A DNA stretch of 64,000 nt from Pectinatus sottacetonis (GTDB taxonomy: Bacteria; Bacillota; Negativicutes; Selenomonadales; Selenomonadaceae): the NCBI RefSeq assembly GCF_015732155.1, contig NZ_WIQK01000001.1, positions 1,064,001-1,128,000 of the forward strand, written 5' to 3'. A model generated the notes under the pieces. It searched no databases. It was not told the DNA's origin and saw nothing but the letters and a program-made list of their open reading frames with translations. The first letter of the stretch is position 1. Each line of letters opens with the position of its first letter. Positions 376-56,007 of this stretch are shown here, in pieces. A program made the position numbers and the translations under genes.

Positions 376-514
376 TCAGTTAATATCGTACAGATGGCAT
401 TTAATAATATTTTTCATGAGTATATTATACAACTATCATACACTAATAAAAGCTATACTGACAACGATAATAAACATTTTATCCATTATGTATTAGTGGT
501 TTCTTATAACCGTT

Positions 515-620
515 ATATCTGCTTGGATCTTTACCGACTAAGACAGAAAGGAGTCATATTATTGTCTAAAAATCATTAAACATGCCTAGCGATATTTCTG
601 TCGATGGCATGTATTTTTTT
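515..620 (+). promoter_or_regulatory. Structured leader (candidate pantothenate-responsive attenuator) of yhdT-panF
   Basis: The leader contains ATATCTGCTTGGATC (515-529), ACCGA (533-537) and AAAGGA (547-552). The same elements in the same order and spacing occur in the panC leader at 55864-55904. Downstream is a terminator hairpin, ACATGCC (580-586) with GGCATGT (606-612), then a T-run (614-620). GACAGA (542-547) inside the motif is complementary to TCTGTC (597-602) in the terminator loop, so motif folding and terminator formation could exclude each other. The association with pantothenate genes is seen; the ligand is inferred. It may be a member of the published pan motif family or something new. 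Confidence 0.55.
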
Positions 621-22826: not shown

Positions 22827-23423
22827 ATGGAAAATATTCTTAACTTAGATACAACATTAATTTTTTTTGTTCAGAATCATTTAGTAATAAGTATACTGTC
22901 ACCTATAATGATAGGACTATCTACTATCGGAAATTTTGGAATAATATGGATTTTACTTGGAATTGTACTATTTTTTAAAAAAAGGGGCGGAAAGGGGCGG
23001 AAAATTAGTGTAGGAATATTTATTAGTTTAGGATTTAGTTTAGTTGTTGGAAATATAATTTTAAAACATATGATAATGCGTGTACGTCCATGCATCGAGT
23101 ATCCTTGGGTACCAATGCTCATAAATATTCCTGCTACTAATAATTTTTCTTTTCCATCTGGGCACACATTTTCTTCTTTTGCAGCAGCTACGATATTGTT
23201 TAAAGGATTAAAAAAGAAGTGGGGAATTATTGCTCTAGTTTTAGCTTCGGGCATTAGTTTTTCCAGAATTTATTTATTTATGCACTATCCAAGTGATATA
23301 TTAGCTGGAATTATTTTGGGTATTGGGTTTGGCAATTTGTCATATTATCTATCAGGTAATTTGACTAGATTTAATATTTGTCAAAATTTGAATTGCATAA
23401 AGAAAGATATCAATAAATGGTAA
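22827..23423 (+). CDS. PAP2-family membrane phosphatase (BcrC/YbjG-like)
   Basis: This 198-residue protein has about six hydrophobic segments and the three phosphatase motifs of the PAP2 family: KHMIMRVRP (K-x6-R-P), P-S-G-H (FPSGHTFSSF) and SRIYLFMHYPSD (S-R-x5-H-x3-D). Such proteins dephosphorylate undecaprenyl pyrophosphate or related lipids on the outer face of the inner membrane. Placement behind a two-component system and before a lipid-type methyltransferase (7-base overlap) fits a role in envelope stress or bacitracin/polymyxin resistance; the substrate is inferred. Confidence 0.88.
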   Translation: MENILNLDTTLIFFVQNHLVISILSPIMIGLSTIGNFGIIWILLGIVLFFKKRGGKGRKISVGIFISLGFSLVVGNIILKHMIMRVRPCIEYPWVPMLINIPATNNFSFPSGHTFSSFAAATILFKGLKKKWGIIALVLASGISFSRIYLFMHYPSDILAGIILGIGFGNLSYYLSGNLTRFNICQNLNCIKKDINKW

Positions 23424-24109: not shown

Positions 24110-24162
24110 AAAAAGCTGTCTTTGTCCATTCCTTAAAAGATTGGATAAAAGACAGCCTTTTT
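24110..24162 (+). terminator. Terminator after the two-component/PAP2 block
   Basis: GCTGTCTTT (24115-24123) pairs with AAAGACAGC (24148-24156), with inner TCCA/TGGA, preceded by A5 and followed by T5. It can act on both strands. Confidence 0.8.
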
Positions 24163-24242
24163 ATATATTTATATTAACTGGTATAATTAATATTATTGTC
24201 TGAGTCTTGTGAGTTATAATTAAAAGGGTATATTTATAGTAC

Positions 24243-24360
24243 TGAACCTCCCACGACTAAAGTCGCGGGGTTCCTGCTTCACGGATAGTTGCGCCAAAAG
24301 CACGTCTTATATTATCTCCACAGGCTATCCCCGCAGTTCCTACGGTTCTTATATATGTTA
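24243..24360 (-). ncRNA. Omega-RNA-like 3' end of an IS200/IS605 element
   Basis: Directly after the tnpB stop, the minus strand carries ACCGTAGGAACTGCGGGGATAG, AGACGTGCTTTTGGCGCAAC and the end hairpin CCCGCGACTTTAGTCGTGGG followed by GGTTCA. This order matches the guide-RNA scaffold and right end that follow tnpB in many IS605-group elements. With almost all of tnpB gone, any transcript has no cognate protein here. Confidence 0.7.
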
Positions 24361-29679: not shown

Positions 29680-29700
29680 ATAAAAAACAAATAATGTTGG

Positions 29701-29860
29701 ATTAGGCGTCAGAGATGACTTAATAGGGAAATCGGTATATTTTAGGCCGATGCGGTCCCGCCACTGTAACACGGAGCAACCCCGCAGGTTTTCCATTGGA
29801 ATTTAATATTCTGAGAAGGAGCGGTAAGGTGATGATGTGGAGCCAGGAGAACTACCTAAT
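29701..29860 (+). ncRNA. Cobalamin (B12) riboswitch
   Basis: The closing stem ATTAGG (29701-29706) / CCTAAT (29855-29860) encloses the conserved parts in order: TTAATAGGGAA, GATGCGGTCCCGCCACTGTAA, and the B12 box GAGCCAGGAGAACTACCT. It has its own consensus promoter and is followed by a terminator at 29943. No cobalamin transport or synthesis gene follows on this strand; the next large gene (alsS) is on the other strand. Confidence 0.93.
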
Positions 29861-29942
29861 TTACAGTCACCGTTTATACATTTTGTATAAGTACCTGCGA
29901 GCGATGGGAAGGAGATTACTGCAAAATATTGTAGATAACTAT

Positions 29943-43318: not shown

Positions 43319-43348
43319 AAGGCTGTATTCAGAGATTGGCAACGGACT

Positions 43349-43409
43349 CACATGCTCTTGTAAGTCATTGATTGGTTAATTCGATGTTTTACAAGAGCAT
43401 GTGCTTTTT
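43349..43409 (+). promoter_or_regulatory. Leader hairpin with T-run before csp
   Basis: CACATGCTCTTGTAA (43349-43363) pairs perfectly with TTACAAGAGCATGTG (43389-43403), followed by CTTTTTG. It lies about 55 bases before the csp start, between the promoter and the gene. It looks like an intrinsic terminator within the 5' leader, so read-through is needed for expression. Confidence 0.65.
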
Positions 43410-43463
43410 GTTTAATTCTATTGAATATATAATATTTTTTTAATTCTCAGGAGGACTCATATA

Positions 43464-43673
43464 ATGACAGGAACAGTAAAATGGTTTAACGCTGGTAAAG
43501 GCTATGGCTTCATCACTAATGATGATGGAAGTGGAGATTTATTTGTACATTTTTCCGCTATTCAGGCTGAAGGCTATAAAACCCTTGAAGAAGGCCAGAA
43601 AGTAACCTTCGATGCTGAACCAGATAGCCGCGACAGCAGTAAAATGCGCGCTGTTAATGTTTGCGTTGCCTAA
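43464..43673 (+). CDS. csp: Cold-shock-domain protein (CspA/CspB type)
   Basis: This 69-residue protein has RNP1 K-G-Y-G-F-I ([12 protein letters not shown]) and RNP2 L-F-V-H-F ([10 protein letters not shown]) of the cold-shock OB fold, which binds single-stranded RNA and DNA. The codons are strongly biased, as for abundant proteins. AGGAGG is 9 bases before the ATG. It has its own consensus promoter, a leader of about 140 nt with a terminator-like hairpin, and a strong terminator after it. Confidence 0.96.
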
Positions 43674-43696
43674 TTGATATATAGGAATACAAATGT

Positions 43697-43736
43697 AAAA
43701 ATACCGTCTGACAAAATGTCAGACGGTATTTTTTTT
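43697..43736. terminator. Terminator after csp
   Basis: ATACCGTCTGAC (43701-43712) pairs with GTCAGACGGTAT (43718-43729), followed by T8. Confidence 0.9.
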
Positions 43737-52314: not shown

Positions 52315-52532
52315 AAAATAGCGATGAACAAATGAGTACGATATATCGACTTTTCAGAGAAACGGCGGGTGGTGTGAGCCGTAAAAGCTGTATATTGGAA
52401 GGCTACTTGTGAGCTGTCAATAAAAAATTGACCGCTTTATCTGGCGTTACAGGATATAAAGTGAGCATTATGCTAACTAAGGTGGTACCACGGGAACAAT
52501 GTCCTCGTCCTTTTCGGACGGGGACTTTTTTT
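52315..52532 (+). promoter_or_regulatory. T-box leader, specifier apparently GCU (Ala)
   Basis: Seen in order: AATGAGTACG (stem I AGTA motif), the apical GGCGGGTGGTGTGAGCC, AAGGCTACTTGTGAGC, the T-box AAGGTGGTACCACG (52479-52492) and the terminator GTCCTCGTCC/GGACGGGGAC (52501-52525) with T7. Aligning NNN-ACY-TNTGAGC as in other T-boxes puts GCT (52402-52404) in the specifier position, which means uncharged tRNA-Ala would allow read-through. The specifier call is by alignment from memory and less sure than the T-box itself. Confidence 0.88.
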
Positions 52533-54512: not shown

Positions 54513-54920
54513 TTAAATGTTTTCCTTAAGGGCCATTTGTGTAGTCTGACATGGTTGTTCAATGTGCGTGGTTGTAACCGGGTGATTATTGGCATCCACA
54601 ATAACAACTTTGGGTTTTAATGTGCGGGCTTCAGTCTCATTCATAAGGGCATAAGCAATGATGATGATAGTGTCACCTATAGCTGCTTTACGGGCAGCAG
54701 CTCCATTTAAGCAGATAATACCGCTGTCCTTTTTACCGGCTATTACATAAGTTTCCAGACGGGCACCATTATTATTATTTACTATCTGTACTCGTTCACC
54801 TGGTAGTATTCCTGCCAGTTCCATGAGCGTTTCATCGATAATTATGCTTCCCACATAAGAAAGATCAGCCTGGGTGACGATGGCACGATGTATTTTTCCA
54901 TGAAACATATTATATATCAT
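54513..54920 (-). CDS. panD: Aspartate 1-decarboxylase
   Basis: This 135-residue proenzyme makes beta-alanine for pantothenate. G24-S25 (L-S-Y-V-G-S-I) is the self-cleavage site that yields the pyruvoyl group. M-F-H-G-K-I-H-R and N-G-A-A-A-R-K-A are family motifs. It is slightly longer than usual at the C-terminus. Its ATG shares a base with the panC stop (TAATG), so the genes are coupled. Confidence 0.95.
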
Positions 54921-55774
54921 TATTCTGCCTCCAGAATTATGTTGTCAATGAGCCTGGTTTCACCAAATTTAACAGCTACAGCGAGTAAAACAGGCTGAGT
55001 AATCGTTGTTGGTACAGGGACTAATCCAGGCAACCCGTATAGCTCCACATAATCTATATGGCTCAGAGGCTCAGCAGCTATCATTGAGGTTACTGCTGAT
55101 ATAAGCGTCTGAGGACGGCGCTCTCCTACGGTAAATAGTTTTTTGGCATACTGCAGGCTTTTATATAATACCACAGCAGCTTTCCGCTGTTCACTAGTCA
55201 AATATGTGTTACGGGAACTTTTTGCTAGTCCGTCACTTTCACGGATGATGGGCATTATCCGTAATTGTACAGGGAAAAATAAATCTTTAACCATTTTTTT
55301 TAGGACTTCAACCTGCTGGGCATCTTTTTGTCCAAAATAAGCTTTATCAGGGTTAATAATATGGAATAACTTGGTTATAATAGTAGCTACTCCGCGAAAA
55401 TGAATAGGTCTGGTTCGGCCACACAGAACTTTTACAATATTGCCAGTGACTTCTACCCAAGTCATATCATTGCTAGGATAGAGTTCTTTTGGTTTAGGAG
55501 AAAAAATTATATCAGCACCGGCAGTATCGGCAGTCTGGCAGTCTTTTGTTAAATTTCGGGGATATTTTTCGTAATCTTCGTTGGGCCCAAACTGGGTAGG
55601 GTTAACAAATATACTAACAACAGTCAAGTCGTTTTCTTTGTGGCATGCAGTGATAAGTGAGGCGTGTCCTTCATGCAGTGCGCCCATCGTTGGAACGAGG
55701 CCTATTGATTTTCCATTATGGTGAGCGGAGTTAAGCAGGTTTTTTAACTCTAATATAGATTTGCATAGAATCAA
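54920..55774 (-). CDS. panC: Pantothenate synthetase
   Basis: Translation most likely starts at TTG 55774, behind AAGGAGAG with 7-base spacing. This gives 284 residues, the normal PanC length; the ATG at 55813 would add 13 untypical residues. Seen: [14 protein letters not shown] (the H-I-G-H-like motif), [22 protein letters not shown] and [12 protein letters not shown] (KMSKS-like). It joins pantoate and beta-alanine. panD follows. No panB is near. The leader has a conserved motif shared with panF and a terminator. Confidence 0.95.
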
Positions 55775-55828
55775 GGTATATCTCTCCTTAAAGGTGTATT
55801 TTGTAACAAACAAAGAAGAGAAAGATAA

Positions 55829-55857
55829 TAAAAAAAACGCACTGTGAGAAAAGTGCG
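55829..55857 (-). terminator. Attenuator terminator of panCD
   Basis: CGCAC (55838-55842) and GTGCG (55853-55857) form the stem; on the minus strand a T8 run follows. CACTGTGA at 55840-55847 can instead pair with TCACAGTG at 55884-55891 in the upstream motif, which would break this hairpin. Confidence 0.65.
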
Positions 55858-55863
55858 CAAATA

Positions 55864-55904
55864 TCCTTTGCTATTCGTCTCGGTCACAGTGATCCAAGCG
55901 ATAT
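55864..55904 (-). promoter_or_regulatory. Conserved leader motif of panCD (shared with yhdT-panF)
   Basis: On the minus strand: ATATCGCTTGGATC, ACTGTG, ACCGA, ten bases, AAAGGA. The panF leader (515-552) has ATATCTGCTTGGATC, TTT, ACCGA, nine bases, AAAGGA. Both copies stand between a promoter and a terminator ahead of pantothenate genes. It is a candidate ligand-binding RNA; known membership (for example the pan motif) needs a covariance search. Confidence 0.55.
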
Positions 55905-55978
55905 TATGTATAATATTTGAATAAGCAGCTGTGATACAGTTCATGAGATACTGTTCATCTTATGCTTGTTACTCGCAT

Positions 55979-56007
55979 ATAATAGCATAGATAAAATATC
56001 TATGCAA
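55979..56007 (-). promoter_or_regulatory. panCD promoter with palindrome filling the spacer
   Basis: On the minus strand TTGCAT (56007-56002), a 17-base spacer and TATTAT (55984-55979). The perfect palindrome GCATAGATA-aaa-TATCTATGC (55985-56005) lies between the two hexamers, overlapping the -35, an ideal repressor site. Confidence 0.6.

Follow-up and report, generated by a model that had tools for sequence, protein, structure and literature searches.

A pan RNA in the panCD leader of Pectinatus sottacetonis, and pan RNAs before vitamin B5 synthesis and import genes across the Negativicutes

In Pectinatus sottacetonis, a conserved RNA motif and an intrinsic terminator lie between the promoter and the first gene of the panCD operon, which raises the question of what the motif is, whether it competes with the terminator, and which signal such a leader would report. 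A first-pass annotation of the window (the whole 64,000-nucleotide stretch analyzed here) had named the pan motif as a candidate, and this assignment was borne out. Segment 55870–55960 of the minus strand is a tandem pan RNA of Rfam family RF01749: the covariance model of the family gave 59.7 bits, compared with a gathering score of 36.2, and was aligned over its full length (1–92), including both hairpins. The match (55871–55957, minus strand; E 6.4e-8 over the window) is the sole Rfam pan match above the cut-off in the window, and our class model, R1, scored the leader at 65.6 bits. With two tandem hairpins carrying conserved bulged As, and with panC and panD downstream, the leader has the traits of this known family and is an ordinary member of it. 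The sequence ATATCGCTTGGATC (55904–55891, minus strand) occurs once without mismatch in the window; a site with two mismatches (23286–23299, minus strand) was rejected, being opposite an open reading frame (22827–23423, plus strand) and giving no pan match up to E 5. The other Rfam matches in the window are a T-box (52315–52515, plus strand), a cobalamin riboswitch (29687–29873, plus strand) and a cspA-thermoregulator match (43341–43732, plus strand) barely over its cut-off (78.8 versus 78 bits); weak matches to the Enterococcus sRNAs Ref70 (29.3 bits) and RefA9 (23.6 bits) at 24112–24351 on the minus strand are far under theirs.

All parts of the leader lie on the minus strand. Directly upstream of it, as had been claimed, is a promoter-like TTGCAT/TATTAT sequence. 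Read from the sequence, the promoter (55979–56007) has a −35-like TTGCAT, a spacing of 17 nt and an extended −10 element, TATGCTATTAT, with transcription expected to start near 55972; a promoter scan listed TTTGCA-18-TATTAT (9/12) as one of four promoter-like sites in the stretch, where 2.7 were expected. The element TCTATGCTATTATA likewise stands upstream of the panCD leaders L013, L018, L094 and L106, which come from the same genus. A 9-bp perfect inverted repeat, GCATAGATA...TATCTATGC, lies between the −35 and −10 elements (55985–56005); it was rejected as an operator, since same-genus relatives share the right half only, which is part of the extended −10. Hairpin 1 (55932–55957) and hairpin 2 (55875–55901; TCGCTTGG A TC ... 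GACCGAG A CGA), each with two bulged As, were placed by the RF01749 and R1 alignments and by covariation among 66 sequences. The interval first annotated, 55829–55920, covers hairpin 2 and the terminator and misses hairpin 1, which lies upstream. The terminator (55830–55858), found by a terminator scan and by folding, consists of the hairpin GCGCACT...AGTGCGT (55858–55837) and, as annotated, eight Ts (55837–55830); the scan listed two terminator-like sites in the stretch, where 0.1 were expected. It is followed by panC, encoding pantoate--beta-alanine ligase (54920–55774; TIGR00018, 350.8 bits; PF02569), and panD, encoding aspartate 1-decarboxylase (54513–54920; TIGR00223, 169 bits). The panC reading frame opens at a TTG at 55813; judged by eye, the TTG at 55774, behind AAGGAGAG, is the likelier start.

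The motif is conserved in related genomes, as the annotation would have it. RF01749 was matched at E ≤ 0.05 in 217 of the 380 genomes of the class, in 179 of them above the cut-off, and R1 at E ≤ 0.01 in 206. Covariation was assessed on 66 pan RNAs, mostly taken from a set of 154 loci and picked for clear hairpins and for spread over genera, and it fits the two hairpins. With the structure drawn as two hairpins that carry four bulged As in all, standard pairs filled 97.2% of the alignment cells, and 14 of 21 pairs had changed on both sides; none of 500 shuffles scored as high on any of five measures. When the structure was slid by one to three columns, 32–42% of the cells were paired. Such controls are lenient toward a structure derived from the very sequences tested, but the 270 double-change cells greatly exceed the 28–70 of the slid structures. 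In each hairpin the two bulged As are five base pairs apart. Invariant or near-invariant columns are found at the bulges and neighboring pairs, and the loops vary.

Two further copies are found in this genome, in which R1 gave three matches at E ≤ 0.01. The annotation had placed the same motif before panF, where a second pan RNA is present (468–551, plus strand; R1 34.0 bits, E 8.4e-6 over the window) in diverged form: at 28.5 bits it falls under the RF01749 gathering score of 36.2, so that, compared with the Rfam pan entry, the panCD leader lies above the cut-off and the panF copy below. In the R1 alignment, the core of hairpin 2 is kept with both bulged As and two non-standard pairs, and hairpin 1 is degenerate. 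We regard this copy as a diverged relative because its counterpart before yhdT-panF in Pectinatus brassicae (L176), the closest named relative found, whose PanF is 82% identical, passes the Rfam cut-off with 39.1 bits; before the same genes in a further genome (G143, locus L126), pan scored 46.3 bits. Downstream on the plus strand are a terminator-like hairpin, ACATGCC...GGCATGT (580–612; −13.3 kcal/mol), with a U-run (to 620), a gene for a yhdT-like small membrane protein of 94 residues (DUF997; 689–973; PF06196), and panF, encoding a sodium/pantothenate symporter (966–2471; TIGR02119, 527.6 bits, cut-off 328). The simple terminator scan listed nothing at 580–620, owing to its loop limit of 8. 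No coupling between pan and terminator was computed for this leader; in L126 it reached 6.0 kcal/mol, and L176 has, by eye, the GAAAGG/CCTTTC pair that is usual in the class (see below). At 545–580 of the window, AAAGGAG is followed by TTG TCT AAA AAT CAT TAA, resembling the yhdT start of locus L117 (TTGTCTAAAAATAAAATG); this stretch is possibly, judging by its sequence, a remnant of a directly translated arrangement.

The third copy lies outside the window (G000:C1:1439391–1439480, minus strand; L003, L151), before a DUF2520-panB operon whose panB is at 1437613–1438386 on the minus strand. It scored 22.5 bits with Rfam and 48.4 bits with R1, whose alignment includes a hairpin 1 lying farther away. 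Its hairpin 2 has CUUUG/CAAAG in place of the usual CUUGG/CCGAG or CUUAG/CUGAG; locus L118 of genome G141 has the same paired change. Two other own-genome matches, L004/L152 (20.9 bits) and L005/L153 (15.1 bits), were rejected on their low scores; R1 gave 20.8 bits for the first, which adjoins open reading frames that we take to resemble flagellar export proteins, and no match for the second.

After removal of five entries (these two weak matches, each held twice, and L151, a duplicate of L003), 149 of the 154 loci were counted. In 131 of these, panB, panC or panD was found in the fetched stretch; ten had import genes only, five only DUF2520 or PanS-like genes, two birA-coaX and one (L038) none of these. 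The first gene after pan was PanS-like in 55, DUF2520 in 38 and PanC in 30 of the 149 loci, proportions that are no survey of the class because loci were picked mostly by pan score. Gene groups were formed by blastp and labeled by Pfam and NCBIfam searches with a few representatives rather than gene by gene, and the PanS label denotes a match under its cut-off (293.5 versus 400). The two birA-coaX loci (L093 in G290 and L125 in G291), which encode a biotin ligase/regulator and type III pantothenate kinase and have no B5 synthesis genes in the fetched stretch, come from two genomes that belong to a single genus; the completeness of one of these is 65%. In another genome (G334; L038/L155), pan precedes a gene for a 5′-nucleotidase/e(P4)-type phosphatase (TIGR01533, 218.1 versus a cut-off of 216.05), which may have a role in the salvage of phosphorylated B5 compounds.

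Genomes without matches to the synthesis genes bear on the signal. PanC was matched in 240 of the 380 genomes. A pan match with no PanC match was found in 27; we took 21 of these and left out six that are less than 80% complete (G034, G038, G045, G086, G087 and G291). One genome (G147, 24.9 bits) and a second match in G320 (25.2 bits) were then dropped on account of neighboring genes without a link to B5. In all 20 Negativicutes genomes that were examined, PanB, PanC and PanD gave no match and CoaB is kept, so these organisms should import pantothenate. The genomes are 80 to 100% complete, which makes single absences weaker in the poorest of them, and they are not independent, as a single genus (g10) accounts for 12 of them and seven further genera for the rest. 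Behind pan, B5 importers were found in 19 of the 20 (12 PanF and 7 PanT-like) and the phosphatase in the remaining one, G334. The PanF cases comprise nine with YhdT-PanF, two with PanF directly and one with a YhdT/PanF reading frame (G165, also of g10), whose pan match of 27.1 bits is, by eye, a single hairpin; matches in G186, G195 and G165 are under the Rfam cut-off. The PanT-like label rests on PDB matches, as NCBIfam does not name these ECF S components PanT: searches with L028, L132 and L160 gave no PDB relatives at E ≤ 1 other than 4rfs_S and, for two of them, 6zg3_C, entries that come from ECF-PanT structures (PMC11521937, PMC7755397).

In 16 of the 20 genomes, a Shine-Dalgarno sequence is set against hairpin 2. 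A pattern of GGAGG directly after the hairpin 2 strand, with a start codon within 11 bases, was found in 15 of these 16 leaders; the remaining one (L163) has the same layout by eye, outside the scanned stretch. Of the other four genomes, three (G046, G276 and G334) have terminators; the fourth is G165. The occurrence of terminators in some leaders and Shine-Dalgarno sequences in others points to the same RNA with two kinds of output.

Looking beyond the class, we sampled 34 PanF-like loci by protein rather than by RNA, among them one poor relative (L209, 21% identity) and one with only 325 bases upstream (L191). In 21 of them, a single pan-like hairpin, GGRYRGUAUUCC...GGAAACUAUACC, lies on the strand of the symporter, 394 to 714 bases upstream of its match. 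The pattern, which was written after some of these sequences had been seen, gave no other match in the 221,337 bases when both strands were searched. R1 responds weakly to these loci (E 0.007 to 3.5 for 12), and the one Rfam pan match among the 11 PanF loci scanned was that of P. brassicae, which is counted apart from the 21; the pattern gave nothing in the remaining 12, which include L209. The single hairpins come from Mogibacterium, Clostridiales and Eubacteriales records, mostly metagenome-assembled, with one isolate, Bacilliculturomica massiliensis (L199). The 5′ strand of pan and the 5′ arm of the terminator are complementary in these leaders, and coupling at equilibrium was unsupported, the native terminator exceeding foreign ones from other pan leaders in 8 of 19 (two of the 21 loci gave no terminator).

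On this evidence, we think it likely that the pan leader is a negative-feedback switch on B5 supply, with a signal at or after pantothenate and with termination as the output in the panCD leader. Starting from the structure, the conservation, the gene contexts and the competition computed for the panCD leader, we infer the direction of control, the nature of the signal and any regulation in the cell. The two hairpins with their bulged As would be the sensing part. When B5 and CoA are plentiful, the signal, either a metabolite of the CoA pathway or a protein that reports on such a metabolite, would stabilize the pan fold and keep hairpin 2 closed, CACUGUGA included, whereupon the terminator would form and panCD would be off; under scarcity, that strand would be released and could pair with the terminator, and RNA polymerase would read on. 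Because copies stand before three operons (panCD, DUF2520-panB and yhdT-panF), one signal would govern both synthesis and import; the motif does stand before both kinds of genes, in this genome and in others. The annotation had also proposed an attenuator sensing pantothenate, CoA or pantoate. The anatomy is that of an attenuator leader, but pantoate is disfavored, as is beta-alanine, by pan standing before importers in genomes without PanB, PanC and PanD matches; the signal is more likely pantothenate or a later product of the CoA pathway than a de novo intermediate. The birA-coaX leaders hint at CoA or a late product, since pantothenate itself would hardly be a sensible cue for turning off the kinase that consumes it.

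The sensing step could take either of two forms, and our confidences in them overlap because both are versions of the same best explanation. In the first, which we hold at only a little short of an even chance, pan is not a metabolite-binding riboswitch; a dedicated RNA-binding protein, probably a dimer, recognizes it and reports B5 or CoA status. Hairpins this simple, with their two bulged As and frequent tandem arrangement, fit a protein site, as does the concentration of invariant columns at the bulges and their neighboring pairs while the loops vary, and the single hairpins before panF (21 of 34 loci) show that the second hairpin is not always needed. The discoverers of the motif suggested binding by a dimeric protein (PMC2864571). 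Against this, we know of no candidate protein, and the two output layouts, terminator and Shine-Dalgarno, are as in riboswitches, which is compatible with a protein too. In the second form, which we find plausible though somewhat less than evenly so, pan acts as a riboswitch with pantothenate or a later metabolite of the CoA pathway as its direct ligand. This would account for pan before importers in genomes that keep CoaB and have no PanB, PanC or PanD match, and for pan before birA-coaX in G290 and G291; if regulation of the birA-coaX leaders runs the same way, CoA or a late intermediate would be a better candidate than pantothenate, but those cases are confined to two genomes of one genus, one of low completeness. 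Small simple hairpins are, as far as is generally known, unusual for metabolite aptamers. Two riboswitch reviews point to CoA as a conspicuous case among the ligands without a known riboswitch (PMC9971707, PMC10043782). A bolder idea, which we consider unlikely, is that pan represents the riboswitch class still missing for coenzyme A or one of its late precursors. If it were true, a single RNA family would, through a terminator or by blocking the Shine-Dalgarno sequence, shut down B5 synthesis, the uptake of pantoate and pantothenate and, in certain genomes, pantothenate kinase, and would live on in B5 auxotrophs purely as an import switch.

The output step rests on the relation between hairpin 2 and the terminator. 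The annotation had proposed that an 8-mer of the terminator pairs with one inside the motif. The two are indeed exact complements, with the sides the other way round: CACTGTGA is in hairpin 2 of the motif (55891–55884), and TCACAGTG is in the loop and 3′ arm of the terminator (55847–55840). As a conserved device, the CACUGUGA:UCACAGUG helix did not hold up, being missing in all four other same-genus panCD leaders (L013, L018, L094 and L106), in which exact complementarity between hairpin 2 and terminator extends over four contiguous bases at most. Folding calculations placed the structure with the helix forced 2.7 kcal/mol above the best fold (−30.2 versus −32.9) and its pairing probability at equilibrium at about 0.014. 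Hairpin 2 is predicted to be stable alone (0.99), so that the terminator would form at equilibrium without any signal, and a switch would have to be kinetic. The helix may accordingly be a coincidence, with the panCD terminator constitutive or under another pairing, and we entertain this tentatively, as a reading with rather more against it than for it. Its absence from the four relatives and the dominance of the terminator at equilibrium speak for it, as does a calculation in which the L106 terminator, which is without the 8-mer, gave about as much coupling behind the window's pan as the native one (6.78/7.12, 6.51/6.41, 5.20/5.06 and 5.22/4.81 kcal/mol in four set-ups). Against it stands the size of the native coupling between hairpin 2 and terminator, 7.1, 6.4, 5.1 or 4.8 kcal/mol depending on the length of the flank and U-run, which was reached with the window's pan by only 1, 1, 3 or 6 of 135 unrelated terminators. 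Over the same variations, the probability of the terminator without hairpin 2 went from 0.04 to 0.56. The coupling of the four relatives themselves is 1.7, 0.7, 1.6 and 3.3 kcal/mol (L013, L018, L094 and L106, respectively), that of L018 being under its control. These models suggest that the panCD leader probably couples pan to its terminator and that the 8-mer may not be the whole of this coupling.

A class-wide tendency to such coupling also argues against coincidence. A hairpin with a U-run follows pan in 139 of 144 leaders, a set that excludes L052, L096, L123, L132 and L137, which were missed by the hairpin 2 pattern (L123 and L132 are of the Shine-Dalgarno type). Some terminator picks in this set look wrong (e.g. 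L012, L115 and L135), and the coupling of L003 rests on a doubtful terminator. Commoner in the class than the 8-bp helix is another device, in which the pan tail GAAAGG is complementary to CCTTTC in the 5′ arm of the terminator; CCTTTC occurs in 75 of the 139 pan terminator arms and in 1 of 87 unrelated ones. Pairing between tail and 5′ arm averaged −10.8 kcal/mol, compared with −7.7 for shuffled tails and −7.0 for unrelated terminator arms, with only 39% of leaders beating 95% of their own shuffled tails and 57/139 beating 95% of 30 unrelated arms. Swapping partners among leaders weakened the pairing slightly with one leader per genus (53 leaders; −10.9 versus −10.0; p 0.0005 to 0.013 in ten draws), and with one per family (26 leaders) p was 0.002 to 0.066. 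In partition function calculations, the mean coupling was 2.62 kcal/mol for native terminators and 0.90 for unrelated ones; native terminators coupled more strongly in 95 of 127 leaders and, by family means, in 24 of 26 families, the exceptions including f2 (11 leaders), whose mean was negative (−0.55 kcal/mol). Counts over the 139 leaders are not independent owing to shared ancestry (54 come from one family).

Intermediates of de novo synthesis (pantoate, ketopantoate, beta-alanine or ketoisovalerate) are very improbable as the signal: the commonest first genes (PanS-like, DUF2520 and PanC) all lie around pantoate, beta-alanine or ketoisovalerate could arise by other routes, and another clade could use another signal, but 20 of 20 genomes without PanB, PanC and PanD matches keep pan, 19 of them before importers.

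The presence of pan before importers in apparent non-makers of pantothenate removes much of the list of candidate signals. The RNA can serve as a marker for B5 transport genes, among them PanT-like S components and PanS-like transporters, and also for the e(P4)-type phosphatase, with its possible part in salvage. The single-hairpin and Shine-Dalgarno versions are compact and easily tested forms.

How, then, does the leader compare with known systems? It resembles transcription-attenuation riboswitches, as generally known, in having a conserved fold whose strand, by calculation for the panCD leader and on average in the class, would compete with a terminator; it differs in that its hairpins are simpler than typical aptamers, no ligand is known, and the competing pairing varies between clades. 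No ligand or proven signal for pan was found in the open-licence PMC literature, as far as the consulted parts of these articles go (including PMC11487621, PMC5670726, PMC6593275, PMC4342826 and PMC4634765). PyrR and TRAP leaders, again from general knowledge, use a short RNA structure to choose between terminator and antiterminator in a biosynthesis operon, as proposed for pan, but they are controlled by proteins, and no protein is known for pan. The T-box leader, of which the window holds an example (RF00230; 52315–52515, plus strand), shares the proposed nutrient-responsive choice of terminator or antiterminator, yet it is a separate Rfam family and is generally known to sense uncharged tRNA.

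The closest comparison is with RF01749 itself. The pan motif was described in 2010 by Weinberg et al. (PMC2864571), whose main text places it before operons with panB, panC and aspartate decarboxylase genes and gives most, not all, pan RNAs as tandem. No report of pan before panF or panT was found in the open-licence PMC literature, in which the 2010 paper is represented by its main text, and relative to that literature, as far as it was seen, four things are new: pan before importers, its presence in auxotrophs, the version with a Shine-Dalgarno sequence and the lone hairpin before panF. The panCD leader of P. sottacetonis matches the family as described, with tandem hairpins, two bulged As in each, and a position upstream of biosynthesis genes. 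The differences lie in the wider set, in which pan also stands before yhdT-panF, PanT-like ECF S components, PanS-like genes and birA-coaX, is kept in B5 auxotrophs, where a Shine-Dalgarno sequence is set against hairpin 2, and takes a single-hairpin form before panF.
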